From contig NC_026744.1 in the NCBI RefSeq assembly GCF_000210295.1, positions 4,230,617 through 4,294,616 on the forward strand: DNA of 64,000 bases, read 5' to 3'. The notes beneath the pieces were generated by a model. It saw only the letters and a list, made by a program, of their open reading frames with translations, had not been told where the DNA came from and did no database searches. Shown here piece after piece: positions 4,649 through 62,287 of the stretch (within the stretch, counting starts at the first letter, position 1; every line of letters starts with the position of its first letter). The stretch comes from Trypanosoma brucei gambiense DAL972. Taxonomy: Eukaryota; Euglenozoa; Kinetoplastea; Trypanosomatida; Trypanosomatidae. A program made the translations under genes and the position numbers.

Positions 4649-6844
4649 TCACTCCAGTGAAAAGTGAACAGTGTTCCCGCTCACTTCCCACACACCCACG
4701 TCCGCGTAAGTGTTCAAACAGCGTTGTAAATGTGACTCGTCAATACCTTTTATCATAAGAGCCGGTCGCACCTCAGCCAAATCAATCGACCCCCTGGAAC
4801 GAGCCAATTCCTTAATGGTCGAGAAAATTGCAGCATCAGATGTTGTCACCATTCGCCGCCCACCGGTATCCACACGTTCTTGTAGCGAAATCTTACTACA
4901 GTCTAAAAGCCGACCAGCCTCTCGTACATCAGCTTCAACGACACGGTCGGAGAAGCGGAGTCGCGCGCATGCTTGCGAGAGGCGAATGATACTGAGTAGT
5001 GTCCGCGCGGTAACAACGTTTGTGTGACGAACACTCTGAGCCCGCATTTCACAATAAATGTCACTGATAACCTTTGCTGCAGAGCTGTCAACAATAGGGT
5101 GAATTTTTTTGGCTTCACCAACGTATGCCTGCAGGAAATCCTTTCCAAAGTAGTCACTTGACAAACCGTAAAACCCATTGTCGGATACCGTCCCTGGTGC
5201 CACACCGTGCAAATGAACATAGGTTACGTGCATCGAAAGTTCTGCATCCCGTTCCCGGTTTGATTCGTCAAGCAGAAGCCAAAGGACATCGAAACGAGAA
5301 AGTAGCGCGGGAGGTAAATTTACATTCTCACTCGGTGTCAAATTGCGGCGCCAACGTCCATACTTGGGGTTTGCGGCGGCTAAAATAGATGTGCGGGCAT
5401 TGAGCGAAGTAATTATCCCAGCTTTAGCTATAGACACCATCTGTTGTTCCATTACCTCATGTAACGCTGTCCGATCGCTATCGTCCATTTTGTCAAACTC
5501 GTCAATACAGCAAATACCCCGGTCCGAAAGAACCAATGCGCCACCCTCAAGCATCACCTCTCCGGTGTAAGTATCTCTAGTCACAGCCGCCGTTAAACCA
5601 ACACCAGAACTGCCCTTCCCTGTTGTAAAAATAGAACGAGGGGCTACCGAAGCAATCCATTTCAAAAGCTGACTTTTGGCGACCCCGGGATCCCCCATCA
5701 AGCATATGTTGGTGTCACTTCGTATGCGAATCCCGTTGGCAATGGAGCTTCCCCCAACCAACAAACAGAGTAGTGCCTTTTTAACATCCTCCATTCCCCA
5801 GATTTCTGGTGCCACGCTTCGCGTCAGCTTCTCAATAACAACCTCCTTGTCGGGATGCTGCTTCACATTATCTACCTGAATCTTCAGGTCATCTGCAGCC
5901 TCCTGATAGCTGCGCCTTTCCAACTCAATGCGCAGAGCGCGAAATAGAGTCTTCACCATTGTTGATGCCCTAAATGCTTCATGGCCTTGCCCAGTAGACG
6001 GATCAGGGCAATACGTCCCCACAACCTTTACAACCTGTCCTGGGGTTGCTATTCGTGTCTGCTCACCCTCACAAATGACACGAATCGTACGAGGAATGGC
6101 ACCTCGGGGCACGTACTGGGGAAGTTCCTGTAAACGAAGCTCCTGGTGCTTGGTGAACTTACTTGCCTTATACTGAGGGAGGAGACGACCTACGGTATTG
6201 TTCAACCTGCAGCGCTGTGACTGGCACACCATTAGCGGGGTCAGGCGATCCCCAATAACTTGCTGAAATGTGGTCTCAGCACACACCTCGCAGACAGATA
6301 CTAACATTGATAGCTTGGGGCGTACAGCTGTTGCGGCAATACAAATTCCACGCAACACAACGAGTGTGCCTATCAAACCCCCCTTTAACTGCCTGAGAGG
6401 CACAGGCTCAGAGAAGCTAGTTAAGGGCATCACAACCAGTTCGTAACGTCTCGTAAGTAATGGAGGAAGATGCTGTCCCGCTGTCTGCGCCTCTAAAATA
6501 AGGTGATCAATCATATCTTCTTCGAAATAAGCCTCCGGAATTATCTCATCCACAACGCGATACATCTCTTCACGGTACCCCATGACATTCATTTGGATTC
6601 GCTGCGCCAGGTACAACTGCCCATAAAGTTGTATGTCATCTAGATCAACAGTGAAAACGTTTGTCTCCCTACGGGCTACCCGAGCCGCCATATCCATGTA
6701 TTTCATCCCGCCAGACGCATCACGAAACTCTTCAAAGAAACGTCTGCACAAATCACGATCGGCCAAGTAGTTGGGATACTTGGAGGTGGCAGCTACAGCA
6801 AATGCCGCCTTTTTGGTCTGCTCTTGCGTCGGCCCGTCCGCCAT
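4649..6844 (-). CDS. MCM7: DNA replication licensing factor MCM7
   Basis: MCM7 is one subunit of the hexameric MCM2-7 replicative helicase. The first ATG, at 6844, gives 731 residues; the frame extends upstream only with non-ATG codons. An N-terminal zinc-binding motif has the pattern C-x2-C...C-x4-C (CEVC and CQSQRC, about residues 185-213). The AAA+ core has Walker A GDPGVAKS (about 384-391), Walker B CCIDEFDKM (about 445-453) and the arginine-finger motif SRFD (about 516-519). The spacing and the IDEFDKM signature identify the MCM family. The overall match to MCM7, rather than another subunit, rests on my recognition of the whole sequence and on gene order. A splice acceptor lies 35 nt upstream. 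Confidence 0.95.
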   Translation of the reverse strand: MADGPTQEQTKKAAFAVAATSKYPNYLADRDLCRRFFEEFRDASGGMKYMDMAARVARRETNVFTVDLDDIQLYGQLYLAQRIQMNVMGYREEMYRVVDEIIPEAYFEEDMIDHLILEAQTAGQHLPPLLTRRYELVVMPLTSFSEPVPLRQLKGGLIGTLVVLRGICIAATAVRPKLSMLVSVCEVCAETTFQQVIGDRLTPLMVCQSQRCRLNNTVGRLLPQYKASKFTKHQELRLQELPQYVPRGAIPRTIRVICEGEQTRIATPGQVVKVVGTYCPDPSTGQGHEAFRASTMVKTLFRALRIELERRSYQEAADDLKIQVDNVKQHPDKEVVIEKLTRSVAPEIWGMEDVKKALLCLLVGGSSIANGIRIRSDTNICLMGDPGVAKSQLLKWIASVAPRSIFTTGKGSSGVGLTAAVTRDTYTGEVMLEGGALVLSDRGICCIDEFDKMDDSDRTALHEVMEQQMVSIAKAGIITSLNARTSILAAANPKYGRWRRNLTPSENVNLPPALLSRFDVLWLLLDESNRERDAELSMHVTYVHLHGVAPGTVSDNGFYGLSSDYFGKDFLQAYVGEAKKIHPIVDSSAAKVISDIYCEMRAQSVRHTNVVTARTLLSIIRLSQACARLRFSDRVVEADVREAGRLLDCSKISLQERVDTGGRRMVTTSDAAIFSTIKELARSRGSIDLAEVRPALMIKGIDESHLQRCLNTYADVGVWEVSGNTVHFSLE

Positions 6845-12058: not shown

Positions 12059-13947
12059 AGATAAGCGACACATGCTTTCTTTTTTTGGGGGGGGCCTCGA
12101 AATGCACATAAACATTTCCTCCTCTATGAGGACTAAATGATGAGTCCCTCCCCCCCCTCCAATCAAATGAAAAAGGAAGTAGTGCATACACAAAGTGATG
12201 AATCGTAGATACAAAGGAAAAAAGCAAACAAATCACTGTGGACAGATGTATTTGTAAGGCCAGAAACATCCTCCAGTGCAAATATTGTTTCCTTCGGTAC
12301 GCTGAGTAAAAGAGTAGATGGGTAGCGAAATGCCAGAAGATTATCATACAACTATTGTTCAGGGAGGGTGTGTCACTGTAGATGGTACCGTGAAAGTTAC
12401 CGGAAAGAAATAAAGGACGGATCCGTGTGTAAGACAAAAGTAGCCATATTTTACAAACTACATGTCATTCTTTGTAGCCCTTTAAAACAAGCTCCACTCG
12501 AATTCAAGGTGGGAACCGCCTGCCACACATGGAAGTTGACTGACTATGACACTAGTCGGCAGAGGCATACGCATTCGTATTAATTCATTCCGCTTTTCCC
12601 CACTGCGCGGCGGACCGGAATGAGAACGAGGGCGGCATCATTGGTGCTGGAGAGTGGGAAAAGACTGCCCCATAATATTCCCGGCTCGAATCGTGAACAT
12701 TACTATGAAGGTTACCGTGAGGCAAAATCGCAGCATCCCGAGAAGGTACAACTCACCACGGTGGTGGAGGGAATCGTCCCTGTGCGGTTTTTATGCCATC
12801 ATTTCCAGTAACTTTAGCCGCTTTCACGGAGAAACACACCGGAGGGTGGAGCCGAGAATGCGGATGATACAGCCCGTTAGAATCAACAGCGGAAGTCGGT
12901 AAAGGGTGGACCAAACCTACTAACACCTCCTGAAGGATTCACGACACTTCCACCTCACTAATCAAAGGAAGAGAGGATTCGTGATCCAGCGGTACGTTGC
13001 GAGTGCAATTTGCTTCACTCTCGATTCGACTCGAAAGTAAAGCATACGGCGGGGAAAACATTGGCAGGCTGAAAAAAAAACGGGTAGGTGGGAAATAAAA
13101 TATGGCTCCGAAGCCACTTGTGCACACAGACGCCCTTATTGCTACGGCGCCCTCATGATCATTCTTACACATTTGTATAGTTTTGAGGGAGTCCGTAAAC
13201 ACAGAAAAGGGAACGATGATTCCGGACGTCGCGGATAGCAGGAAGTAAAAGGGAAAGAAGCAATGGGGCCACATCAGCAAATACGTGCTAAGGCACTCAT
13301 AGCAACCGAAACCAAACCGGTTACAAACTTGCTTTAGGTGCCAAGTTGTATCCAAGCGTGTTGATAATTGAAAGGGATTTGCGCAGCAAAATGGAATAGG
13401 AGAAGGGACTCTCACTGAGCAAACAATGATGCCAATAGTAAGAGCATGAGCGCAAATAAGCAACGGGTTCGGAGAGTCGTGCAATACATGGCAACGCTGG
13501 TTCGTGTAACGCCTCTCATTTCTTCTACAACAGGGAGTGAGCAGAGATGGAATGAATCCAAGGAGGGGGAGCGCCATCGTGAAAGTGCGTTACTGAAAGT
13601 TGTTCACGAGAGCTTTGCTAAATTTAACCAACCGGCTGGCCGATAGAGAGGGCGTCACTTCCCACAACATCGCTTGTGTGGGTTCCGTACGGCACCTGAA
13701 GATGGAGAGATACGGGATACTTCTTCCGATATAACTGAAACATCATGTGATTGCCGCATGCCATTTACTCCGGAGCAGAAGGTAAAGGGATGTGGGGTGG
13801 CACCATGGCCCAAGGTAGTGTTGGCCGAAAGCGTCTTAAGTGTAGCCAAGTATTTCTGAGGCAGGTGGGCCCCACCTGGCGTATTTGCAAACAGGAGAAT
13901 ATATATATATGGCGGAGTGGCGCCCCCCCCCAAAAAAAAAAAAAAAA
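12059..13947 (+). repeat. Left arm of the 1.89-kb inverted repeat
   Basis: This stretch is the reverse complement of 22951-24838. By eye I find about ten substitutions and a few small indels over 1.89 kb, so identity exceeds 99%. The outer limit is the sequence AGATAAGCGACACATGC at 12059. The inner limit is a C9 then A16 tract ending at 13947. Near the outer end there is a T7-G8 tract (12080-12094), so each arm has a poly-T/poly-G block close to both ends when each end is read inward. Near the inner end is CAGGTGGG-C-CCCACCTG (13862-13878), a small palindrome. The arm holds an ATG-started 212-codon frame (12939-13577, minus). Confidence 0.95.
12939..13577 (-). CDS. Hypothetical 212-residue ORF in the left repeat arm
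   Basis: An ATG-started frame of 212 codons, cysteine- and proline-rich, with hydrophobic stretches (LICAHALTIGIIVC, FPFYFLLSATSGIIVPFSVF) that could be membrane segments. The right arm carries the same frame intact (23319-23957, plus). The copies differ by at least one residue (Val or Ala before PLDHESS). An antisense frame of similar openness also exists in both arms, so an open frame alone is weak evidence. I see no known domain. In this arm it is sense to the polycistronic unit, in the right arm antisense. Confidence 0.3.
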   Translation of the reverse strand: MALPLLGFIPSLLTPCCRRNERRYTNQRCHVLHDSPNPLLICAHALTIGIIVCSVRVPSPIPFCCANPFQLSTRLDTTWHLKQVCNRFGFGCYECLSTYLLMWPHCFFPFYFLLSATSGIIVPFSVFTDSLKTIQMCKNDHEGAVAIRASVCTSGFGAIFYFPPTRFFFSLPMFSPPYALLSSRIESEANCTRNVPLDHESSLPLISEVEVS

Positions 13948-14303
13948 CATTCAGCGATGAAGTGTACAGCACTTATTCCACCAAATACTTTTACGGCTTC
14001 ATCACTTGGGCCTTCCCGGCCTCTATAACTCCGGAAATGGGAGAGCATCGAAACTTTGCCGAGCTGGTGCTCTCCTCGGGAAGGGGGTATTTCTCGCTGG
14101 CCCTTCTTTTGGCCCATATACGTACGCGTGTATCCGCCAAGGCTCCGAACCCCTACCTTATAATACAACACGTCAATCTTTTCTTCCCAACGCCCGATGC
14201 GAGCACCGAAGAACACGCTGACCAGACCGAACAGTGGGAAATACGTAAAAGGCTGCCGCCAACTCGGACCCACAAGCAACAGATATACGCCCGCTGCCGA
14301 CAT
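13836..14303 (-). pseudogene. Possible gene fragment broken at the repeat boundary
   Basis: From an ATG at 14303 a frame runs leftward with a plausible N-terminal hydrophobic segment (YFPLFGLVSVFFGARIG), a basic middle and about 119 residues of coding-like sequence. It then enters the A16/C9 tract at 13947 and continues into the repeat arm as poly-Phe and Gly followed by a tail that comes from the arm sequence. A natural protein is unlikely to end this way. It looks as if a small gene was cut when the arm was inserted or copied here. I do not recognise the product. Confidence 0.35.
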
Positions 14304-15819
14304 CCATCCATCCCTTGGTTTAACCGGCTTTTTCGTTACATGGGAAGAAGAGCGGAGGGAATAATTCGCCTAGTGCCACCCCACTGCAGCTCCGTAAGCT
14401 ATCGAACTTGCGATGAGCACAGAAAGCAGAGACCCCCACAATTATCGGCGTCTCATACCTCCGACTACCTGGGTGTTCGCCCGTTTATTTCTTAGTTTAA
14501 CTCACCGTCAACGCTACTAAATGATTGGCAGAAGGATATAGAGAGTCTTAGAAGAAGGTGGGAAATAGCCACCAATCCCACCACCAAAAACAGCACCCGT
14601 ATACACACTTATGGGCACATGCGGATCGGTTAAAATGTTTTGCAGGCAAGATTTGGATCACACATGCTGAAATACTAACCCCAGGTGATTAGTTAACCTT
14701 ACCTCTCTTCCACTGACCTTTGCGTCCCAACACTTCTTCGCCTCATCATACCATAGATCGCGTTAGTAGAAACGCATCTCCGGCGCCTCGGAATATCGTA
14801 GGATCCTCGTTTGGCGGCACATATCCAAGATGATCCCCAGCACTTCAGCGCGTTCGCATTTACTAATGATGGGACGCGCACCATCGCGACTTAATTACAA
14901 ACTTAAGCGGCTGCAGCTGCAGAACTGTTGTTGTGCCTCGGAAGTTGAAGGATGTTGTCGCCGTAAGGGCTCGCTTACCCTTCATGGTGGTTTATACGAC
15001 CTGCAATGCCCAAACCTCGAGGCGCATCGCCGCAATTTGTGCGCCAAAATTTTTAACATTTAAACCGCACTAGTGGAGTATCATGCGTTACAACTCGCGT
15101 GGAAGGACACCAACAGCCATGTGATTCACGCATAACCTGGAGCACCTGCAAGTGAATGGTTTACAAACGAGAAGACCCAATCTCAGCGTGTCCACGCGTG
15201 CTTCTAGGGTTTTGTAACTACCGGTCGTCGTTGGAGCCCTGTTCAAAAATAGCCTGCGAAAACTAAGGAGCTCACTAATGACGCTCCTTACACTTGCGGT
15301 TGTTTACCCCCACCCAACGACAGCTCCAAGAGCACCACCGCACCACCCAAGGTTCTGACGACCACAGCACTGCCACACTCCACAACCAACAGGGGTTCCA
15401 ATTTTGCGATCGTCATTTTCATTTACATTGCCGAGTGTAGCAAAACATCCATCCGCGGCATTGTCTTTAGTTTAAACCCAACATCAATTCTGTGACGAGT
15501 GAAGATTACCCATGGCATCTTCCGATACCTCCCCACAAATTTAACGCCGATTCTTCAAGCTCTCTCGAGGGACTTAATAACTGCATATCCTCAACAGCAA
15601 ACCCAAGAGAAGAGTTAAACTTCAACGCCCTTGTTTAGTTCCATATTCCCTGCGTCCACTACCCGTACCTCCAATGACCACCCTTATCCAAATAGTGAGA
15701 GTTTTCAACTTCCCCGAACCCTTTCTTCGGTACCCAGACAAACGCTAGTGAAACTCCGCGAAGTGGCGCAGCGCCGCAAAAATTCTCACAACAGAAGACA
15801 TTCAACCACAGCCAACTCA
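13948..15819. other. Left part of the loop between repeat arms
   Basis: 1.9 kb between the left arm and the leucine-rich-repeat gene. Apart from the possible gene fragment ending at 14303 no convincing gene is visible. It would include the 3' flank of the LRR gene. Open frames on the plus strand (13917-14495) overlap the fragment and have no domain. Confidence 0.5.
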
Positions 15820-16488
15820 TTAAGCTATTTTTTCACCAAGTTGCTTGGGCCCCATCTCCTTCAAAGGCAACTCCACCTCTTTTACGTTCACCCCTCTTCC
15901 TCTAACTTCACAAAGAATCGCATCATCAACACAATTCTCAGACATATGGATTGTATCCAATGACGGAAGAGTTTTAAAAAAATCTGTATCCACACTAGTA
16001 TTATAACACTCTGTGACGTCCAACGCCCTCAGTTGACTCATTCCCCTAAGTGCAGACGTATCACCTAAATGACCACAATAACGAAGCTTCACAGCCATAA
16101 GTGAAGTAATGCCACCAAAAAAGCTCACATCTTGAACGCCCAAACAAGAAACATTAACTAACTTCAACTTCATGCAACCTTTCAGAACATCAAAAACACG
16201 AATACTATTGCAATAGGAAATATCAAGTGCTATCAAATTCCTGAAATCCCTCAGGACACTGGTATCAGTAATACCTTGGCAACTTATCAACTGTAATTGT
16301 TGTAGTGTAGTAATTTCATGTATCCGCCTAATATTTGTTAGCGTCGTACAGTTGTTGAGAATTAGTGTCTGCCACCCGCTGCTTTGTGATTTTCTGAGGT
16401 ATTGTTCTATTGTCGCATTTGCTTCTACTCCAAAACTTTCCACTATTCCGACAACTTGCTGATATGTAGGGGGTTGCTGCTGAGTCAT
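15820..16488 (-). CDS. Leucine-rich-repeat protein, short, LRRP-like
   Basis: An ATG-started protein of 222 residues. From about residue 38 it shows six consecutive repeats of about 22-24 residues of the cysteine-containing LRR type, for example LQQLQLISCQGITDTSVL, LIALDISYCNSI, LMAVKLRYCGHLGDTSAL and LRALDVTECYNTS. This is the style of the trypanosome LRRP1/ESAG8-related families. Those proteins are usually several hundred residues long, so this is either a short member or a truncated copy. No RING domain, signal peptide or membrane segment is seen. It lies in the loop between the inverted repeats, next to the 3' end of the ingi element. Such proteins are thought to mediate protein-protein contacts; a specific role is not known. 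Confidence 0.75.
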   Translation of the reverse strand: MTQQQPPTYQQVVGIVESFGVEANATIEQYLRKSQSSGWQTLILNNCTTLTNIRRIHEITTLQQLQLISCQGITDTSVLRDFRNLIALDISYCNSIRVFDVLKGCMKLKLVNVSCLGVQDVSFFGGITSLMAVKLRYCGHLGDTSALRGMSQLRALDVTECYNTSVDTDFFKTLPSLDTIHMSENCVDDAILCEVRGRGVNVKEVELPLKEMGPKQLGEKIA

Positions 16489-17332
16489 ATCTTAATTTTC
16501 TTTCTTGTCGTATCTTAGTTTATTGCATGTCTTTCTGCATGTATTGACACCACAAATATAGCATTGAAAAGGAAGTTGTAACATGTGCATATTGTAACAA
16601 TATATATGGTGCAGAAGTATGTGAAGTGTACCGCTGTGTTCATTGCATCTCGTCAGGGGGGGGGGCACTTGTATGTTTTATAGAAAATTTAAGTATATTC
16701 AGCTGTATCGTTATGTTTCCTTACATCGTGAATAGCAGGCAAGCAGCACACAAGGAACACGTTTTTTTAAAGATTATGCGGTGCCTGTTTCAGTTCAATT
16801 GATTTTTTTTTGACAAAATAACCGCAAAGGGTAAACGCCAAATTGCCGCAGATGACAACGGCCAGCAGTGACTGACAGAAGGCCACTGCCCACCGGAAAG
16901 GAAAAAATCATAGAGCTTTTTTTCTCCGTCAGTACTGGCCTGGATCACGATATTCTCCTCTAAGCATAAAAGCACATATCTGCTATAAACCACCACAAAA
17001 ACATAAAAAAATATATTGCCTCCAACAATGTAGGAAAATGTGGAAGAACCCTCCTGCTGATCAAACGTCGATAACAACTGTCACTGCTACTTGATATTAA
17101 CCCCCACCCTTTTATATTGCTTAGCACACATGTACGGACAAACATTTTTTGCTCCGTCATCTCAAAAAAAAAAAAAAATCGCACACACACACTTTTCCTT
17201 CCACCTTTTAATCCCTATATGCACGAACGTATCGAATTATTAAAAATAAATAAAATCAAACGCTCCCCCATCACCACTTACCCTACCTTAAGCATCTGTT
17301 GCACCCATGGCCCGACGTCCCTGTATTTCCGC
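16489..17332. other. Loop DNA between the LRR gene and ingi
   Basis: About 840 bp with no gene. A G10 tract lies at 16656-16665 (C10 on the RNA strand, a possible pyrimidine tract for the LRR gene). The rest is AT-rich. Confidence 0.6.
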
Positions 17333-17343
17333 AGTAGAGATAA
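17333..17343. repeat. Ingi target-site duplication, 3' copy
   Basis: AGTAGAGATAA on the plus strand, directly after the poly(A) end of the element. It matches 22599-22609 exactly. Confidence 0.9.
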
Positions 17344-18889
17344 TTTTTTTTTTTTTTTAGAATTTTCTTCGTGCCTTCGTGGGAGTTTCCCCCCACTGGC
17401 GCGGCCATCAGCCATCACCGTAGAGCCCTGAAATGCTATCGGTCTGGCGACTGTGGCAGAGTCTCCCTTTTTTATTCATCCTAACACACCCTCTATAATT
17501 TTTGTTGTAGCTCCGCATTTGAACGGAATACAGCAGATGGGGCGAGAAGCCTCCCACCCCGGACTCTCCAAAAGATGTCAATTAGCAATCCTTTTGTTTT
17601 GATTTTTGTTATTTGTTTATTATTCTCTTCCCCTCTTTCTGTTTCTGTTGCTTGTTGACTGCATACCCCCCCCCTGTCTCTGAGTGTGTCTGGACTATTC
17701 CTGCGTCCGGTGCTTTTCCTGCTAGCTCCACACTCGGCAATAAGGGGGGAAGTTGCAGAAGTGAGAGTGGGTTGTATGACTGTTACATTAGGTGAGGACT
17801 TCACCTGCGGCCGGCTCCGTTCAACCGCAATGAGAAATTGTGCCAGCCTTTTGGAGAAGCATACATCCTGCACACACACACATACACCTTCTACCGCAAA
17901 CCTGACACGTAACTCCTTCAAACCGGGACAGCTCATCAAGTGCAGCGACGTTTCTTCGCAGTCGCCGCGTTGGTTGGTAACGGCGCGCTCTACCTTCATA
18001 CCGTGCATCTTCTTTTGATGTAGGGTGAGGCCAGTTTTTCTAGCACACTGCCTTCCGCATGTCGGGCACACCAACATGGATGTGTTTGTATGCGGGGAAT
18101 CAGTAGCACACAATTTTGTGCTTTTGCTGCATTTAAGCTCGACTCCCTCACCTTTATGGAAAGCCTTACAATGTCGGATGAGGGAGGCCCTGCAACTGAG
18201 CACTTTTTGGCACACACCACACTGCACCTCGCCTTTCCCCGGGGCGTCAACGTTTCCCTCACGGGCACGCTTTCGAGGAAATTGCACCACCACAACGGTA
18301 CCGTCCTCAGTCACTATGCTCTTATGTTTGAATTTCTTGTGTAGTGACAGGGAAGAGCATGTACCGAAGCTCGCCTCGCACAGGTCACATTGAAACGGCA
18401 GCTTCCGTGTATCCTGAGAGGCTGGTGCTGCTGGGACGCTACCATCTCCTTGCAATGAGTCCTCGTTCTCTCTCCACCTTTTCACGCGGCAAATACCGCT
18501 GCCTATGCCATGTATTGTTCTAAGGTGGTGTAATAGTCGGCCTGGCACTGCGAATTTGGAGACACAGATGATACAATGAAGCACCTGTGGTCTCATCGGG
18601 ACTCGTGTGCTTCGACGGTAAAGGAACAATCGCCACCACTGGAGGGGCTCCGGGGGGATATCCACTGCAGGTGTTGCATCGCCGTATTTGATCCTCCGGA
18701 GGGCATCAGCTCGCACAAAGCCCTGTTTGCTTACCATGTGCGTTACAGCACTCGAGCGGCATTGGTATGTGGCATCACATTCAGTACATTTGGTCGGTTC
18801 GGAGGTTCTCTGAAGAGTGCGTGTCGCAGCAGGTGGGGCCGTTTGTATTGTTGGCCCTATCGCTGCATGTTGCGGGTTACACCATCTGC

Positions 18890-19036
18890 NNNNNNNNNNN
18901 NNNNNNNNNNNNNNNNNNNNNNNNNNNNNNNNNNNNNNNNNNNNNNNNNNNNNNNNNNNNNNNNNNNNNNNNNNNNNNNNNNNNNNNNNNNNNNNNNNNN
19001 NNNNNNNNNNNNNNNNNNNNNNNNNNNNNNNNNNNN
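18890..19036. other. Assembly gap of 147 N inside ingi
   Basis: A run of N lies between the RNase H and the first C2H2 finger. The reading frame before and after the gap differs although 147 is a multiple of three, so the true length is not exactly 147 or another indel is hidden in it. The total element length close to the usual ingi size suggests that the gap size is nearly right. Confidence 0.95.
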
Positions 19037-22000
19037 ATGTTTTGTTGTAAAGTGGTTGCCCGTGATACCAAACCTATGAGTGTTCTCATGGACTTCTTCC
19101 GACCTAAGCACTCGCTTCGCATAAGCAATGATGTCGGGGATCCATGTGTCTCGCAACTGTGGTAAATCTGCGGCCTTTTTGGCCATTTCATCGCAAACCT
19201 CATTCCGTTTCACGCCACAATGGCCAAACACAAATTGCAGTCGGATACGTATCTTCCTTCTCTGAACTTGAAGCAGAAGCCTCCATAGTCGTCTTAGAAT
19301 TGGGTCCGTTACGGCTAGGGGGCCTATCTGCAGTGCTGTTAACATTGACAGCGAGTCAGAGAAGATGGACAACCTGCTCGGTGTGCTTCTGTATGCCGGA
19401 AGCCATTTCAGCAGCCGTTGCAGTCCTATCTCTAATGCTACGCATTCCGCTCTGTAACTGCATGAGAGTTCCCCTGCTCCGGTCTTGGGTGCACAAATCA
19501 GCGTGTTGTTTCTATAGAGCAGTGCAGCTGCTCCGGACTTCTTACCGAGGGACACGGATCCATCAGTCCACAATTCGTAGTGCTCTCGCCGCGGTGGCTC
19601 CTTCCCCCTCCGTGCAAAATGCCGTGCAATCCGCTTTTCGGAAACCTCCCTTTTGACATCGTCAGGGTCATCAGCGCACACAGGCTTTATCTGCGTGTGA
19701 AATATCGGTCGGCAGCTGTGGCGGAGCGTCGATGTCTCTAGTGGGTGCTCTCGTGGCTCAATGCGGAGGTGGGGATAAGACCGCATGATGCGGGAATGTA
19801 GGGCTCTGACTGGGTGTTTGTTGTGGTATACTTTTTCAGCACCGCGGCGCAAACATCTGCCTCGCGACTCACACATCAGCATGAATTTCATACTGCGCAC
19901 AAGAGTGGTCGTCTTGAGTGGCAGGAGGTTTTCTTCCAGCAGAGAGTCCTCTTTGCGCGTCCCATGCGGTATGCCGGCTATGATGCGACTGGCTTTGTGT
20001 TGTGCTGATGCAAGGAGGTCGCGACTTCGTTTCGAAGCGTCCCAGTACCATACCTCAATGCCATACATGGTGTGTGCCTGTACGAGTGCTAGATAAAAAG
20101 ATCTCAGTACTTGTCGTCTTGGCCCCCATGTAGAAGCTGAGATGGCTGCTATCTGCAGTAGTCGGAAGTCCATCTTGCGTCTCGTTTCGGCCGCATGTGT
20201 TGCCATCCCCTGCAGACACTGGAATGTTACTCCTAGAAGCTTCGGTGTCCTGTCAGCTCCTATTCTTTCGCCGTCCAGTTGTAATGTAAGGGGGTGGCGC
20301 TCTATACATCCGAAGAGTGTGCACTTCGTTTTCGCTACGTTGACAGACATGAAGTACTCTTTTGACCACTGTAACACCACGTTTAGACCGCACTGTAGTG
20401 TGTGGTTGATGACATCCCTCTCTGTGGGCCTCGCAAGTAGCGTTAGGTCGTCTGCAAAGAATCCGTGCTGCAGTAACGGCACTTCTGCAAGGCGCTGCTG
20501 GCTCAACGAGTTCATGACAATAATGAACATGATTGGACCAAGGACAGTTCCCTGTGGCACTCCTCGCTCAAATGTTCTGCTTCTGGAAAGCTTCTCCTTG
20601 AATCTCACTCTGCCAGTTCGGTTACTCAGAAATGATACGCACCACTTCACAATGTGGGGTGATACCTTCATTCTGTGCATTTCCCTCGCAATTTTGTCGT
20701 GGTCTACTGTATCGAATGCCTTCTCGTAGTCGACGAATACAGCACCCATACGAGATTGGTGCGTGGGACGGCAGAGGGCAGTGCGGACGTGCAGGAGTTG
20801 TTCGAGCGTTGAGCATCCGGGGCGAAAGCCTGATTGCTGCGGCGTCAGCTGGGACTCAACAGTGTCTCTAAGTCTCGCGGCAATTATGCGTTCCATGACT
20901 TTGCAGAGACAGCTCGTGAGCGTCACAGGCCTGTAAGAATCGAGGTCCTCCGCCTTTTTTCCGGCCTTCAGGATGGGGATGATAACACCAGTCTTCCATG
21001 CAGGCGGCACGACTCCCGTTCGTAGGCTCTCATTGAATAGCCTCAGAACAACATTCAGCGCTGTTCTACCGAGATGTTGCAGTGTCTCGTTGTATAAGCA
21101 ATCAGGTCCGGCTGCGGATCCACTCGGTAGCAGTTTGATTGATCTCCGTAGTTCAGCCATCGTGATGGGACTGAACTCACTCGCTATCGTCTTTATGGGT
21201 GCCGGTGGGTGTGAGTCGGGGTGCCTTCTTGCGCGGGACGAGTACAGTTTACTGAACCTCTCAGCTTGACGGTAGTCCGTGATGGCCGCGTTATCAGCAA
21301 GTACAGCCGGTGTGGTTAGTGGTCGTGGCGCATATACCTTCTTGACAATGTGCCAACTGCAGCGGTCTGACACCGCAAGTCTGGAGCATAGCGTGCTCCA
21401 TCTCTTCTTTGTGGTACGGTCCAGGATCTGCTTACGCGTGGCTACCAACTTTTCCCTTCGGTGGGAGGGTCCGCATCCAGCGATCTCCTCATCGAGTTTC
21501 GCGAGCTCAGGTGTCCAATGCGGATGGCGGCGCTCAATTTCTGTTCCAGGGTGTTGACGTTCTTCTCTCTACCAATTTTCCTGCAGAGCTCGTCAACCTT
21601 GAGACGGAAATTTCTCCAGTCAGCTTTTAGCCATGCGTACATGGGCTTTCGAAGCCGCGGGCAACTCAGTGCATCTGTGCCGTCTCCAACGATAACGTCG
21701 AAAAATATGTGATGGTGATCGCTATCAGGAGAATACAGCGATGTCCACGTGTACACTGTGCAATTCCTTGACAGTGTCACATCAGGGGTGGACTCCTAGT
21801 GGTGGCGTGTGTACCTGGTGCACTCACCAGTGTTGCAGACCAGAAACTGGTTGTCAATGCACCACTGTGTGAGGGTTTCACCCTTGGTATTTGGTGGGCT
21901 CACGCGATCCCATGCCAACGCGTGTGCGTTAGCGTCTGCACCGATGAGCTGGGCACCGTCAGTCGTCAGAAGCGTATCTAGGTCAGTTTCCGTGAAGGTG

Positions 22001-22335
22001 TGTTTTGGTGGGATGTATGCCGAGGTGACAGTCAGCGCCGTTCCACGTGCAAGGTGAATTGTTGCATGCACTTGTTCAATGCGACCAACAACGGCCATAC
22101 CGGTCTCGACTGGTATGTCCTCCCTCACTAGTATTGATACACCACCTTCTTTGCAGTTACGAGCTATTCCGTGATGTTGGTAGCCAGCAACGCTAAAGCA
22201 AGCCGCCTCTCCAGGCGTCATCCTTGTCTCGCTCAACAGACAAAAGGCGATCCGCTCATCAACAAGGGTTTTGTGGAGTGCTAATCTCTTTCCTTGAGAT
22301 AGCCCGGCGCAGTTCCACAGCATCCCGCGCAACGA

Positions 22336-22383
22336 CGGGCCGGGATTCTCTTCCACATCACCGGACAGCAGCATCTTAGTGCG
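22336..22383 (-). other. 2A-like ribosome-skipping motif at ingi N-terminus
   Basis: Residues about 70-85 of the ingi protein read RTKMLLSGDVEENPGP, a perfect D-V-E-x-N-P-G-P consensus. In the related L1Tc and ingi elements this motif separates a short N-terminal peptide from the endonuclease during translation. It is intact in this otherwise broken copy. Confidence 0.85.
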
Positions 22384-22521
22384 GATGATACTGCTGATGG
22401 CACGCTGGCACGTGCCCAGGGACCGACAAATGAAAAACGGTGTCCCAGCAAGACGCTGCTGATCCCTGTGCTGTATGATGCCGTAGCCGGAGCAAAGCAG
22501 TGTTCCCCATGAAAGGAACTC

Positions 22522-22598
22522 TGCTGGCTCTTGGCTTCCCCCGATGATACGGGGTACTGGACCCTGGCACCACGTTGAGGTGGCCGGCATCGCCAGGG
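22522..22598 (-). promoter_or_regulatory. Ingi 5' conserved Pr77-type promoter region
   Basis: The first about 77 bp of the element match the signature shared by trypanosomatid ingi-clade retroposons. In L1Tc this region is an internal RNA polymerase II promoter and encodes a ribozyme in the RNA. Activity here is inferred from conservation only. It also overlaps the start of the ORF. Confidence 0.7.
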
Positions 22599-22609
22599 AG
22601 TAGAGATAA
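22599..22609. repeat. Ingi target-site duplication, 5' copy
   Basis: AGTAGAGATAA on the plus strand, immediately outside the conserved 5' end of ingi. It is identical to 17333-17343. Confidence 0.9.
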
Positions 22610-22950
22610 CCTCAGCCATTGCGGAGTACTTGTGGGGACCAAAGGTGTGTTAAGTGCGGGAGAAATTGGTCTTTTTGTCACATTCCCTACATGATGCCCC
22701 AAATTCGCATATGTCGCATACATGGTTGGGTGCTTCCTGATAAGTGTTGTCTAGGGCAGTGCAGCCGTCTTCCACTTGCAGTTTTTCTTCGTAGTTGCCA
22801 CTTGCCCAATTGCATTCGATTGTTGTTTTCAACTCCCCACTACACTATTGATGTGATGGCGCTTCCAATTTGTTTTTGGGGGTTGACTGCTGATATGCTC
22901 GGCATATTTTTCCCTTCTTCCAAAGGCTCTCTCTTCTATATGTTTGTTTG
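22610..22950. other. Loop DNA between ingi and the right repeat arm
   Basis: About 340 bp with no gene. Before the ingi insertion it was contiguous with the sequence left of 17333. A TTTG repeat (22941-22950) abuts the T13 tract at the arm boundary. Confidence 0.6.
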
Positions 22951-24838
22951 TTTTTTTTTTTTTGGGGGGGGGGCGCCACTCCGCCATATATATATATTCT
23001 CCTGTTTGCAAATACGCCAGGTGGGGCCCACCTGCCTCAGAAATACTTGGCTACACTTAAGACGCTTTCGGCCAACACTACCTTGGGCCATGGTGCCACC
23101 CCACATCCCTTTACCTTCTGCTCCGGAGTAAATGGCATGCGGCAATCACATGATGTTTCAGTTATATCGGAAGAAGTATCCCGTATCTCTCCATCTTCAG
23201 GTGCCGTACGGAACCCACACAAGCGATGTTGTGGGAAGTGACGCCCTCTCCATCGGCCAGCCGGTTGGTTAAATTTAGCAAAGCTCTCGTGAACAACTTT
23301 CAGTAACGCACTTTCACGATGGCGCTCCCCCTCCTTGGATTCATTCCATCTCTGCTCACTCCCTGTTGTAGAAGAAATGAGAGGCGTTACACGAACCAGC
23401 GTTGCCATGTATTGCACGACTCTCCGAACCCGTTGCTTATTTGCGCTCATGCTCTTACTATTGGCATCATTGTTTGCTCAGTGAGAGTCCCTTCTCCTAT
23501 TCCATTTTGCTGCGCAAATCCCTTTCAATTATCAACACGCTTGGATACAACTTGGCACCTAAAGCAAGTTTGTAACCGGTTTGGTTTCGGTTGCTATGAG
23601 TGCCTTAGCACGTATTTGCTGATGTGGCCCCATTGCTTCTTTCCCTTTTACTTCCTGCTATCCGCGACGTCCGGAATCATCGTTCCCTTTTCTGTGTTTA
23701 CGGACTCCCTCAAAACTATACAAATGTGTAAGAATGATCATGAGGGCGCCGTAGCAATAAGGGCGTCTGTGTGCACAAGTGGCTTCGGAGCCATATTTTA
23801 TTTCCCACCTACCCGTTTTTTTTTCAGCCTGCCAATGTTTTCCCCGCCGTATGCTTTACTTTCGAGTCGAATCGAGAGTGAAGCAAATTGCACTCGCAAC
23901 GCACCGCTGGATCACGAATCCTCTCTTCCTTTGATTAGTGAGGTGGAAGTGTCGTGAATCCTTCAGGAGGTGTTACTAGGTTTGGTCCACCCTTTACCGA
24001 CTTCCGCTGTTGATTCTAACGGGGTGTATCATCCACATTCTCGGCTCCACCCTCCGGTGTGTTTCTCCGTGAAAGCGGCTAAAGTTACTGGAAATGATGG
24101 CATAAAAACCGCACAGGGACGATTCCCTCCACCACCGTGGTGAGTTGTACCTTCTCGGGATGCTGCGATTTTGCCTCACGGTAACCTTCATAGTAATGTT
24201 CACGATTCGAGCCGGGAATATTATGGGGCAGTCTTTTCCCACTCTCCAGCACCAATGATGCCGCCCTCGTTTTCATTCCGGTCCGCCGCGCAGTGGGGAA
24301 AAGCGGAATGAATTAATACGAATGCGTATGCCTCTGCCGACTAGTGTCATAGTCAGTCAACTTCCATGTGTGGCAGGCGGTTCCCACCTTGAATTCGAGT
24401 GGAGCTTGTTTTAAAGGGCTACAAAGAATGACATGTAGTTTGTAAAATATGGCTACTTTTGTCTTACACACGGATCCGTCCTTTATTTCTTTCCGGTAAC
24501 TTTCACGGTACCATCTACAGTGACACACCCTCCCTGAACAATAGTTGTATGATAATCTTCTGGCATTTCGCTACCCATCTACTCTTTTACTCAGCGTACC
24601 GAAGGAAACAATATTTGCACTGGAGGATGTTTCTGGCCTTACAAATACATCTGTCCACAGTGATTTGTTTGCTTTTTTTCCTTTGTATCTACGATTCATC
24701 ACTTTGTATGCACTACTTCCTTTTTCATTTGATTGGAGGGGGGGGAGGGACTCATCATTTAGTCCTCATAGAGGAGGAAATGTTTATGTGCATTTCGAGG
24801 CCCCCCCCCAAAAAAAAGAAAGCATGTGTCGCTTATCT
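22951..24838 (-). repeat. Right arm of the 1.89-kb inverted repeat
   Basis: Reverse complement of 12059-13947 with over 99% identity by eye. The inner limit is a T13-G10 tract (22951-22973). The outer limit is GCATGTGTCGCTTATCT ending at 24838, preceded by a C9-A8 tract (24801-24817). Differences from the left arm include single-base changes near 24256, 24034, 23971 and 23903, a two-base indel near 24710 and changes in homopolymer length, so the two arms are distinct loci. The mirrored 212-codon frame is at 23319-23957, plus strand. Confidence 0.95.
23319..23957 (+). CDS. Hypothetical 212-residue ORF in the right repeat arm
   Basis: This is the mirror copy of the frame at 12939-13577, also intact from ATG to stop. 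Here it is antisense to the polycistronic unit, so it is unlikely to be expressed as protein from read-through transcription. Its intactness probably reflects the very recent duplication or conversion of the arms rather than selection. Confidence 0.15.
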   Translation: MALPLLGFIPSLLTPCCRRNERRYTNQRCHVLHDSPNPLLICAHALTIGIIVCSVRVPSPIPFCCANPFQLSTRLDTTWHLKQVCNRFGFGCYECLSTYLLMWPHCFFPFYFLLSATSGIIVPFSVFTDSLKTIQMCKNDHEGAVAIRASVCTSGFGAIFYFPPTRFFFSLPMFSPPYALLSSRIESEANCTRNAPLDHESSLPLISEVEVS

Positions 24839-27787: not shown

Positions 27788-29905
27788 TTACCTTTTCGCC
27801 ATGAACTCTTTGCTCTTGCGGTACAGGTGCACAAAACTCTGGTTAACTGAATTGGTGAGATAACTCGCATTGTGCTCTGTCTGACATAAGCTAATTAACT
27901 CCTGCGATTTCTTGTTGTTGTGCATAATTGCTTTTAATTCCGGAGGCACTGATTTTTCGAAAGCAGCCACATCCACCAGAAAGGCCTCGGTCAAGCCGTA
28001 ACTCGTCACGGTGTAGGTGTAGTGCGTCTTGAGAGAGGCGTATTCGTACGCCCCCAAGATTCGACTAATAAACAACTTGTCAGCAAGGGACCTCCGCCTT
28101 GAGATGCTTTCATAAGGACTCACAACATCTCCCCCCGGAGACGCGTCACCGGATACGGTTATCCTCACCGTAGCATATTCCCCCTCCTCGGTAGAGATGG
28201 TCGTCTCACAAACACCGCTATGTATGATAACAAACCGCTGAAACTTTTGTCCCTGAATCACAAGCTTCTCATCGTTGAGGAAAATGGTTGGGACGCTCAT
28301 CTCCCACATACGCATCATTAGCTGGCGCGTAAGACAAAATTGGATGAAAGGGTCCTTGGAAAGGGAACGAGGGACGGCACAGGGTTTCTCCACTTCCATC
28401 GCACGATGGGATTTGGCTGCTCCGCGGCAGTATAGGAAAGCTGCCGGTTCGCTCATTCCAACATCCATAAGAGCTTCACGGCTTATCCTCCAGATGTCAC
28501 AATAGTTCTGGCTTATTATGGTACACCTTTTTCGCTCGTTAACGCTGCAAGCGCATTCAAATATCCCCACACAACTGCCGCGCGGGACAAGGCGCTGGTT
28601 GCCGTTTGCCTCCAGGAGAACAGCAACGCCATCTTGTATGAAGTAAGCGGAGGGGTCCAGCTCCGACTTGGAGAAGAGGTGATCATTATTGTGGAGGACG
28701 ATGGGCTCCGCCTTGCTAATAATATTTTCCAGGGCAGCGTTGCTGAATTGCACAAAATAAGGGAAACTACGAAGAAATTCCACACGCAGAGGGAAGAACC
28801 TCTGCAAATTGGCGCGCCTCCTCACATCTGTTGCTTCCCGCTGTTTGCTCTTGATTTCCTGGCTCAACTGTTGGGCGACCTCCTCGAACCCCTCGGGTGG
28901 CACGCTCCATACGCCAACATCGGTTTCACAAATAATCGACGCACTTCTCGGCTCCTTACACACGAGAGCAAACTCGCCCACATAACATGGCGGCGAAAGC
29001 GTAAAACAGGCTTTGCTATTCTCCTTGATGCGCCTCTTCCCCTTCTCTCGATCGTTCATGATCACCGAAATGGTTCCAGCTGTGATCATGTACATGCAAC
29101 GGTCCACATCTCCTTCATGCATCAAATACGAGCCCTCCTTCAGATACAGCGGCCGGGCCTTGTGTCCCAGTTGCTCTAACAATTTATTTGGCCATCCATC
29201 AAAAAACGTACCCTGCATTCGGTGAATAATGGAGGGGGTTGGGAAAGGAATTTTGTCCAAATTGTCCCGCGTTAACTCCGCGGCTAGCATCCGTTTCCTC
29301 TGCACGGCCAACCGTCGTTTGATAATCGGCAGTAGGCGGAACTTAATCATCTCCATTGCTTCGTAGTCGCGCCGTTCTTTGATAAGAACAGTGAGGAAAA
29401 CATGTGATGTAATAATTGTGTACCACCTCGCCGCCCGGTGTTGGCGAACCTCCTCAATTAACACGTTCTTCAGATTTAAATGCCGCCTAAAAATGTACTC
29501 CCTTCTTGGGCGCTCATGTTCGTAGGCCGCGCGAAGCTCATTCTGTGCTCTAGCCTTAAGCTCGGCGCCACGCATTCTAACGTTTTCAAGGTATTCAACC
29601 TCGTTTCTTGCTTTTACATTACTGAGCCGTCGCAGGAAGTTCTCCTCGTTCAGCGGTTCGCACCTGCGCAGCCTAGAAACAATAGCTCTCTTTTCCCAGT
29701 CCGTGAAGACGCTGTTCATATTTATGTTCTCCACTATTTGGGCATACCGTCGCGAGCCTTGTCGCTGGGGCGGCAACGGGGGAACCGTGAAGGGTTGGAC
29801 AGGCTCAGTGCCCTGAAGAATGTCATCGCACGACGGCACGTCCGTTCGTGTGAGAAGCCAGTCATGATCACCCATAGCGTAGTCTGGGTATTCATAACTA
29901 CCCAT
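27788..29905 (-). CDS. CARP1: CARP1, cyclic nucleotide-binding-domain protein
   Basis: CARP1 was found as a cAMP response protein whose knockdown makes T. brucei resistant to phosphodiesterase inhibitors. The length here, 705 residues from an ATG, and the sequence match what I remember. It has three cyclic nucleotide-binding-like domains. The first (about 215-330) carries a good phosphate-binding cassette with VGEFALVCKEPRSASI. The second (about 375-485) has a degenerate cassette (VGIFECACSVNERKRCTI). The third (about 525-660) is also degenerate. The N-terminus (about 75-200) is helical and basic. No catalytic kinase domain is present, so it is a receptor or adaptor. A good splice acceptor lies about 113 nt upstream. 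Confidence 0.92.
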   Translation of the reverse strand: MGSYEYPDYAMGDHDWLLTRTDVPSCDDILQGTEPVQPFTVPPLPPQRQGSRRYAQIVENINMNSVFTDWEKRAIVSRLRRCEPLNEENFLRRLSNVKARNEVEYLENVRMRGAELKARAQNELRAAYEHERPRREYIFRRHLNLKNVLIEEVRQHRAARWYTIITSHVFLTVLIKERRDYEAMEMIKFRLLPIIKRRLAVQRKRMLAAELTRDNLDKIPFPTPSIIHRMQGTFFDGWPNKLLEQLGHKARPLYLKEGSYLMHEGDVDRCMYMITAGTISVIMNDREKGKRRIKENSKACFTLSPPCYVGEFALVCKEPRSASIICETDVGVWSVPPEGFEEVAQQLSQEIKSKQREATDVRRRANLQRFFPLRVEFLRSFPYFVQFSNAALENIISKAEPIVLHNNDHLFSKSELDPSAYFIQDGVAVLLEANGNQRLVPRGSCVGIFECACSVNERKRCTIISQNYCDIWRISREALMDVGMSEPAAFLYCRGAAKSHRAMEVEKPCAVPRSLSKDPFIQFCLTRQLMMRMWEMSVPTIFLNDEKLVIQGQKFQRFVIIHSGVCETTISTEEGEYATVRITVSGDASPGGDVVSPYESISRRRSLADKLFISRILGAYEYASLKTHYTYTVTSYGLTEAFLVDVAAFEKSVPPELKAIMHNNKKSQELISLCQTEHNASYLTNSVNQSFVHLYRKSKEFMAKR

Positions 29906-61098: not shown

Positions 61099-62287
<1,189 letters not shown>

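Follow-up and report, generated by a model that had tools for sequence, protein, structure and literature searches.

Does the pair of almost identical inverted arms on chromosome 11 of Trypanosoma brucei gambiense DAL972 mark a source of endogenous small interfering RNAs (siRNAs), and what keeps the two arms alike? We analysed a stretch of 64,000 nucleotides (hereafter the window; contig NC_026744.1, positions 4,230,617 to 4,294,616, corresponding to C11:4230617-4294616 of the searched assembly) in which two arms of about 1.9 kb enclose a loop of about 9 kb. The searched assembly comprises 22,148,088 bases in 11 contigs, and the match counts obtained from it are lower bounds. In T. b. gambiense, this repeat very probably corresponds to Tb927_11_IR7 (IR7), an inverted repeat published as an endogenous siRNA source in T. 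b. brucei.

The left arm (12059..13947, plus strand; delimited by self-BLAST and alignment) starts with GATAAGCG and closes in a C9A16 run. The right arm (22951..24838, minus strand) is its reverse complement and carries T13G10 at its inner end. In a self-BLAST of the window with a cut-off of E <= 1e-5, the sole matching pair joined 12059-13945 to the minus strand of 24838-22951; over 1,890 columns it had 99.37% identity (E = 0), with 7 mismatches and with 3 gap openings that amount to 5 gap bases. Repeat finding recovered the same pair as two ungapped pieces. Aligned globally, the complete arms, which measure 1,889 and 1,888 bp and are about 99.4% identical, fill 1,892 columns with 7 substitutions and 7 gap bases in 4 runs; the four longest identical stretches have 650, 406, 286 and 236 bp. 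The match between the arms is far beyond chance. An initial annotation of the window had described the same intervals as reverse complements of more than 99% identity around a loop of about 9 kb, in agreement with these values and with the 9,003 bases measured between the arms. Its count of about ten substitutions plus small indels was slightly high.

In T. b. brucei 927, Tschudi et al. surveyed seven long inverted repeats in 2012 and reported small RNAs from all of them (PMC3447711). In length and identity, the arms described here fall within the range of that class, which consists of near-identical inverted arms of 422 to 10,011 bp with 99-100% identity. IR7 is the sole chromosome-11 repeat in the survey table and is given there with coordinates 4219000/4231000, 1,814-bp arms and 3 mismatches (PMC3447711, Table 3). 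The window repeat resembles it in chromosomal position (4,242.7-4,255.5 kb here, 4,219-4,231 kb in 927), in span (12.8 and about 12 kb), in an arm identity above 99% and in a gene neighbourhood that extends, by gene number, from MCM7 to CARP1. These landmarks flank the repeat as MCM7 at 4649..6844 (minus strand; Pfam MCM domains and a sub-threshold MCM7 winged-helix match) and CARP1 at 27788..29905 (minus strand; 705 amino acids, cyclic-nucleotide-binding domains, Pfam cNMP_binding). In T. b. brucei MCM7 is Tb927.11.16140 (PMC3581582), CARP1 is Tb927.11.16210 with likewise 705 amino acids (PMC3811416) and the XPB-type helicase has the 927 gene number 16270 (PMC4138998); the window order MCM7, CARP1, XPB-type helicase follows the numbers 16140, 16210, 16270.

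The siRNAs of T. brucei are 22-25 nt long, and for IR7 9,296 AGO1-bound reads were reported from wild-type cells, falling to 52% of that in dcl1-/- and to 2% in dcl2-/- (PMC3447711). These reads stem from T. b. brucei YTat 1.1 and were mapped to 927; DCL2 dependence was clear for IR1, IR6 and IR7 and less so for the other repeats (PMC3447711). The proposal of the initial annotation that the locus is an endogenous siRNA source thus describes what was reported from T. b. brucei, apparently for the same locus. Its caution that the locus might already be listed was justified as well: the siRNA locus is published, and since it has been in print since 2012 its importance as a discovery is small. No other work on this repeat was found in the literature searched, which excludes most subscription papers. 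Its full name occurred only in PMC3447711 among the listed matches of a literature search, and the available text of papers on RBP33 and on RNA interference (RNAi) factors holds nothing on this locus.

A second member of the class was examined in the same way. Within 200 kb of contig C7, the counterpart of IR3 is present as 1188267-1191906 against 1196504-1192864, with 1 mismatch and 1 gap over 3,641 columns; IR3 in 927 has 3,636-bp arms with 1 mismatch (PMC3447711). Hence both published repeats that were examined, out of seven, are kept in this genome. The offset of IR3 from its coordinate in 927 is about 62-63 kb, so that the 24-kb offset of IR7 is unremarkable. To the right of the IR3 counterpart, C7:1202295-1202799 is a 505-bp stretch identical to the IR3 arm start, around which repeats of 245-260 bp and 97-98% identity recur.

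Several points weigh against equating the repeat with an siRNA-producing IR7. The orthology uses position, size and gene neighbourhood rather than a comparison with the 927 sequence, and the IR3 counterpart spans 8.2 kb as opposed to 9.9 kb in rounded 927 coordinates. The siRNA evidence comes from T. b. brucei, and for the gambiense genome siRNA production is predicted. According to the survey, 638,046 further reads were aligned to the gambiense genome and gave no region above background (PMC3447711); these reads are no test of shared loci, because they had already failed to map to 927. Small RNAs from restricted repeat parts and from the spacer are not explained by simple foldback alone (PMC3447711). 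Finally, the uniqueness of the arm sequence applies to the 22.1 Mb that were ordered (281 contigs, against 927) out of 32.6 Mb of DAL972 contigs (PMC2854126).

The DAL972 sequence is a whole-genome shotgun assembly with contigs ordered against 927 (PMC2854126), so one copy could in principle have been placed twice in opposite orientations. Such an artefact is highly improbable. At all four arm ends the flanking sequence diverges immediately in the self-BLAST, giving four distinct flanks, and the arms differ at 7 sites and by 4 gaps. The arms and their junctions are free of N, the sole N run of the window being located in the loop. A matching repeat was reported in 927, where the authors checked IR3 and IR4, though not IR7, by polymerase chain reaction (PMC3447711).

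Could the siRNAs credited to the locus derive from the loop instead of the arms? The loop (13948..22950, no strand assigned) contains an open reading frame (ORF) with leucine-rich repeats and a full-length ingi retroposon. The former encodes 222 amino acids (15820..16488, minus strand; Pfam LRR_4, E 4e-8) and has a weak coding signal, its codon score being +0.086 against +0.026 in the best other frame. The latter (17344..22598, minus strand) is a non-LTR retroposon of about 5.25 kb with a frame broken into several ORFs, Pfam matches to RVT_1 (reverse transcriptase), RNase_H and endonuclease, an A-rich end and a target-site duplication, and thereby has the features of ingi. Within it, positions 18890-19036 are 147 N, the window's only N run, which reflects either a gap in the assembly or sequence that was withheld. 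Because the ingi is flanked by an exact 11-bp direct repeat (17333..17343 and 22599..22609, both plus strand), it is an independent insertion into the loop, which without it would measure about 3.7 kb. Searching the loop against the genome returned at least 80 matches, including the window's own two; among the matches listed, ingi copies elsewhere were 91-98% identical over 1 kb or more and 72-99% in shorter matches.

With such a copy in the loop and with ingi/RHS as the largest siRNA source in T. brucei (PMC3447711), an ingi origin of the siRNAs might be considered. The published dependence on DCL2 makes it very hard to sustain, since ingi/RHS reads remained at 67% in dcl2-/- (2,380,772 against 3,555,719 in wild type; raw counts, with a smaller dcl2-/- library) and IR7 reads at 2% (PMC3447711). 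These ingi/RHS totals pool all copies, so the loop copy is not counted alone. In addition, the arms share no sequence with ingi, either in the window self-BLAST, where arm matched arm only, or in the assembly search. The arm sequence occurs at two places in the searched assembly, both of them this repeat (2 of 2 candidates scored), and nothing else in the window resembles it, so the arms do not appear to derive from ingi or RIME. With simple 20-mers excluded, none of the 20-mers of the arms is present again elsewhere in the window or in the 200 kb of C7. The suggestion that the ingi in the loop could come under the same Dicer control as the arms does not fit the contrast between 67% for pooled ingi/RHS and 2% for IR7.

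How double-stranded RNA (dsRNA) could arise from the arms depends on the direction of transcription. A Pfam scan of 33 ORFs of the window, 24 on the minus and 9 on the plus strand, gave matches at E <= 0.01 for 18, all of them on the minus strand (18/24; 0/9 on the plus strand). One further ORF of 150 amino acids or more, on the plus strand at 18576-19079, lay outside the scan. The recognised genes on both sides of the repeat indeed point leftward, as had been noted from the initial annotation, and the window shows no convergent transcription unit. RNA polymerase II moving leftward would pass both arms, and the RNA of each arm would be complementary to that of the other. These arm RNAs may pair within one RNA or as separate molecules, or low antisense transcription may supply the partner; the resulting dsRNA would be cut by DCL2 in the nucleus and the products taken up by AGO1, with the arms presumably kept alike by gene conversion. 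In a model with a dummy loop, the arm duplex comprises 1,881 pairs at about -3,882 kcal/mol. If the arms pair inside a single 12.8-kb precursor, they would have to do so before it is trans-spliced and polyadenylated; separate RNAs could pair later as well. Since no further copy of the arm sequence was found in the searched assembly, the most likely target of the siRNAs, if they have one, is their own locus alone.

The required machinery appears to be encoded in this genome. We found two Piwi matches, one of them in a PAZ and Piwi protein with an open frame, and five RNase III matches, all in open frames. One open frame carries the kinetoplastid Dicer domain KptA_kDCL; a 600-amino-acid piece of it was scanned and its RNase III match lies below the cut-off (24.9 against 27). 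We take the PAZ and Piwi protein to be AGO1 and the KptA_kDCL frame to be DCL2. In gene content, with Argonaute-type and Dicer-type open frames, T. b. gambiense DAL972 thus agrees with what is expected of a functional RNAi host.

Alternatively, the dsRNA might come from transcription of both strands, by the leftward polycistron together with low antisense transcription, the inverted repeat being incidental. We consider this a real possibility of less than even weight. Small RNAs come from the spacer between the repeats as well as from restricted repeat parts, as shown for IR3, and Tschudi et al. read the spacer signal as transcription of two strands (PMC3447711); siRNAs at inverted repeats, like those at dual-strand loci, increase once H3.V is absent (Reynolds et al. 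2016, PMC4721609). On the other hand, all seven repeats surveyed in 927 yielded small RNAs (PMC3447711), and a transcript of one direction already supplies both complementary arm strands. Folding of a single RNA into a 1.9-kb duplex, as originally proposed, thus stands as one route to dsRNA, while the authors' spacer small RNAs suggest transcription of two strands.

The arms are probably non-coding. The left arm contains a 212-amino-acid ORF (12939..13577, minus strand) and the right arm the same ORF in opposite orientation with one base different (23319..23957, plus strand), neither of which is probably a gene. Its codon score is -0.023 per codon compared with +0.148 for MCM7 and +0.05 to +0.18 for nine non-ingi minus-strand genes or likely genes outside the arms; an ORF of 155 amino acids spanning the left inner junction scores +0.01. 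The score was trained on 11 minus-strand window ORFs, MCM7 and CARP1 among them without being left out, and it misses some coding frames, as the ingi ORFs score only -0.05 to +0.01. The Pfam scan of the window ORFs gave no match for the arm ORF. One relative was found, a protein of 204 amino acids (P0001, source label 'lgn'), which differs by 4 amino acids over residues 1 to 168 and from there on continues in another frame: of its last 36 residues, 34 agree with the left arm and 33 with the right arm when these are read in the shifted frame, compared with 6 or 7 in frame. That the arms code for protein is therefore unlikely, given an ORF that lacks a codon-usage signal and a Pfam match and whose relative is frame-shifted.

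That one arm is a retroposed copy was dropped as an explanation for want of evidence: there is an A-run at the arm end and no terminal direct repeat, comparison of stretches of about 43-49 bp at the arm ends having yielded no direct repeats of 7 bp or more for either arm. Base skew as an indicator of the older arm conflicts, AT skew favouring the left arm and GC skew the right. Counts of polypyrimidine tracts were uninformative, and Rfam returned no family at gathering score in the window. A search of other isolates for ORFs spanning the two right junctions gave 0 of 11 candidates for the inner junction and only the window's own protein for the outer.

What, then, keeps the arms alike? The near identity of repeat arms was remarked on by Tschudi et al. 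(PMC3447711). Non-coding DNA of the two subspecies is on average 95.4% identical (PMC2854126), which over an arm corresponds to about 87 differences; arms evolving separately since before the split would be expected to differ by that much or more, and observed between arms were 7 substitutions here and 3 in 927. Put differently, arms within one genome differ by 0.03-0.4% at IR7 and IR3, compared with an average non-coding difference of about 4.6% between subspecies. The presence of the repeat in both subspecies implies that it predates their split, and its age together with the small number of arm differences suggests that the arms have been homogenised, assuming that the locus diverges between subspecies at the average rate. 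The protein P0001, putatively from another strain, points the same way, with at least four changes where this genome's arms are identical: the first 168 codons of the arm ORF show zero base differences between them. We infer that gene conversion between the arms is the simplest cause. Five of the 7 arm substitutions fall into 12624-12994 (371 bp), adjoining the 650-bp identical stretch. Such apparent clustering is what patchy gene conversion would produce.

Whether the repeat is useful to the cell is a separate matter. It may be a recombination by-product without a regulatory role, its siRNAs arising harmlessly because it is transcribed, a view that concerns function, is compatible with the siRNA source favoured here and seems to us somewhat the better bet. 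The arms look non-coding and match two places in the assembly, without arm 20-mers elsewhere in the window or in the 200 kb of C7, and mRNAs at two convergent units, which are not inverted repeats, were unchanged without DCL2 (PMC3447711). Against it, the repeat was apparently kept in two subspecies with almost identical arms, and so was IR3. A stronger version, in which long inverted repeats are a conserved class whose arms are kept identical by selection for an siRNA-producing hairpin rather than by chance gene conversion, appears improbable. The IR7 counterpart has some comparative value: its arms are still near-identical in the human-infective subspecies, and the question of the original authors, what keeps such repeats identical and whether RNAi helps, can be put to the test by setting arms of one strain against each other and against those of further strains.

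Beyond MCM7, CARP1, the XPB-type helicase, the leucine-rich repeat ORF and three ingi ORFs, Pfam recognised a Tc-38-type protein, nucleoside diphosphate kinase, tubulin cofactor A, a phosducin/thioredoxin-like protein, Suf-type, RINGv and PIN proteins, a 4,128-amino-acid HECT/SPRY protein, ribosomal L2, a C54 peptidase and a myosin/UBA protein. Positions 62165-62242 form a perfect (CA)39 repeat, which reads (TG)39 along the leftward genes. By its number, Tb927.11.16180 falls between MCM7 (16140) and CARP1 (16210), that is, at about 6845-27787 of the window. Of the transcripts listed as decreased in a Lister 427 line resistant to acoziborole, that of this gene comes first, with a log2 change of -8.62 (PMC8648117, Table 2); so large a loss might reflect a rearrangement at this repeat.

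Compared with IR7 in 927, the repeat has 7 instead of 3 arm mismatches and arms of 1,889 instead of 1,814 bp (75 bp longer), and the siRNA measurements are those of T. b. brucei. It has a full-length ingi with target-site duplication in its loop in common with ingi loci, but its arms are ingi-free, and most ingi/RHS siRNAs, in published counts pooled over all copies, survive the loss of DCL2. With the convergent transcription unit siRNA loci of T. brucei it would share DCL2-dependent siRNAs outside retroposons, whereas the recognised genes here all point leftward and show no convergence.

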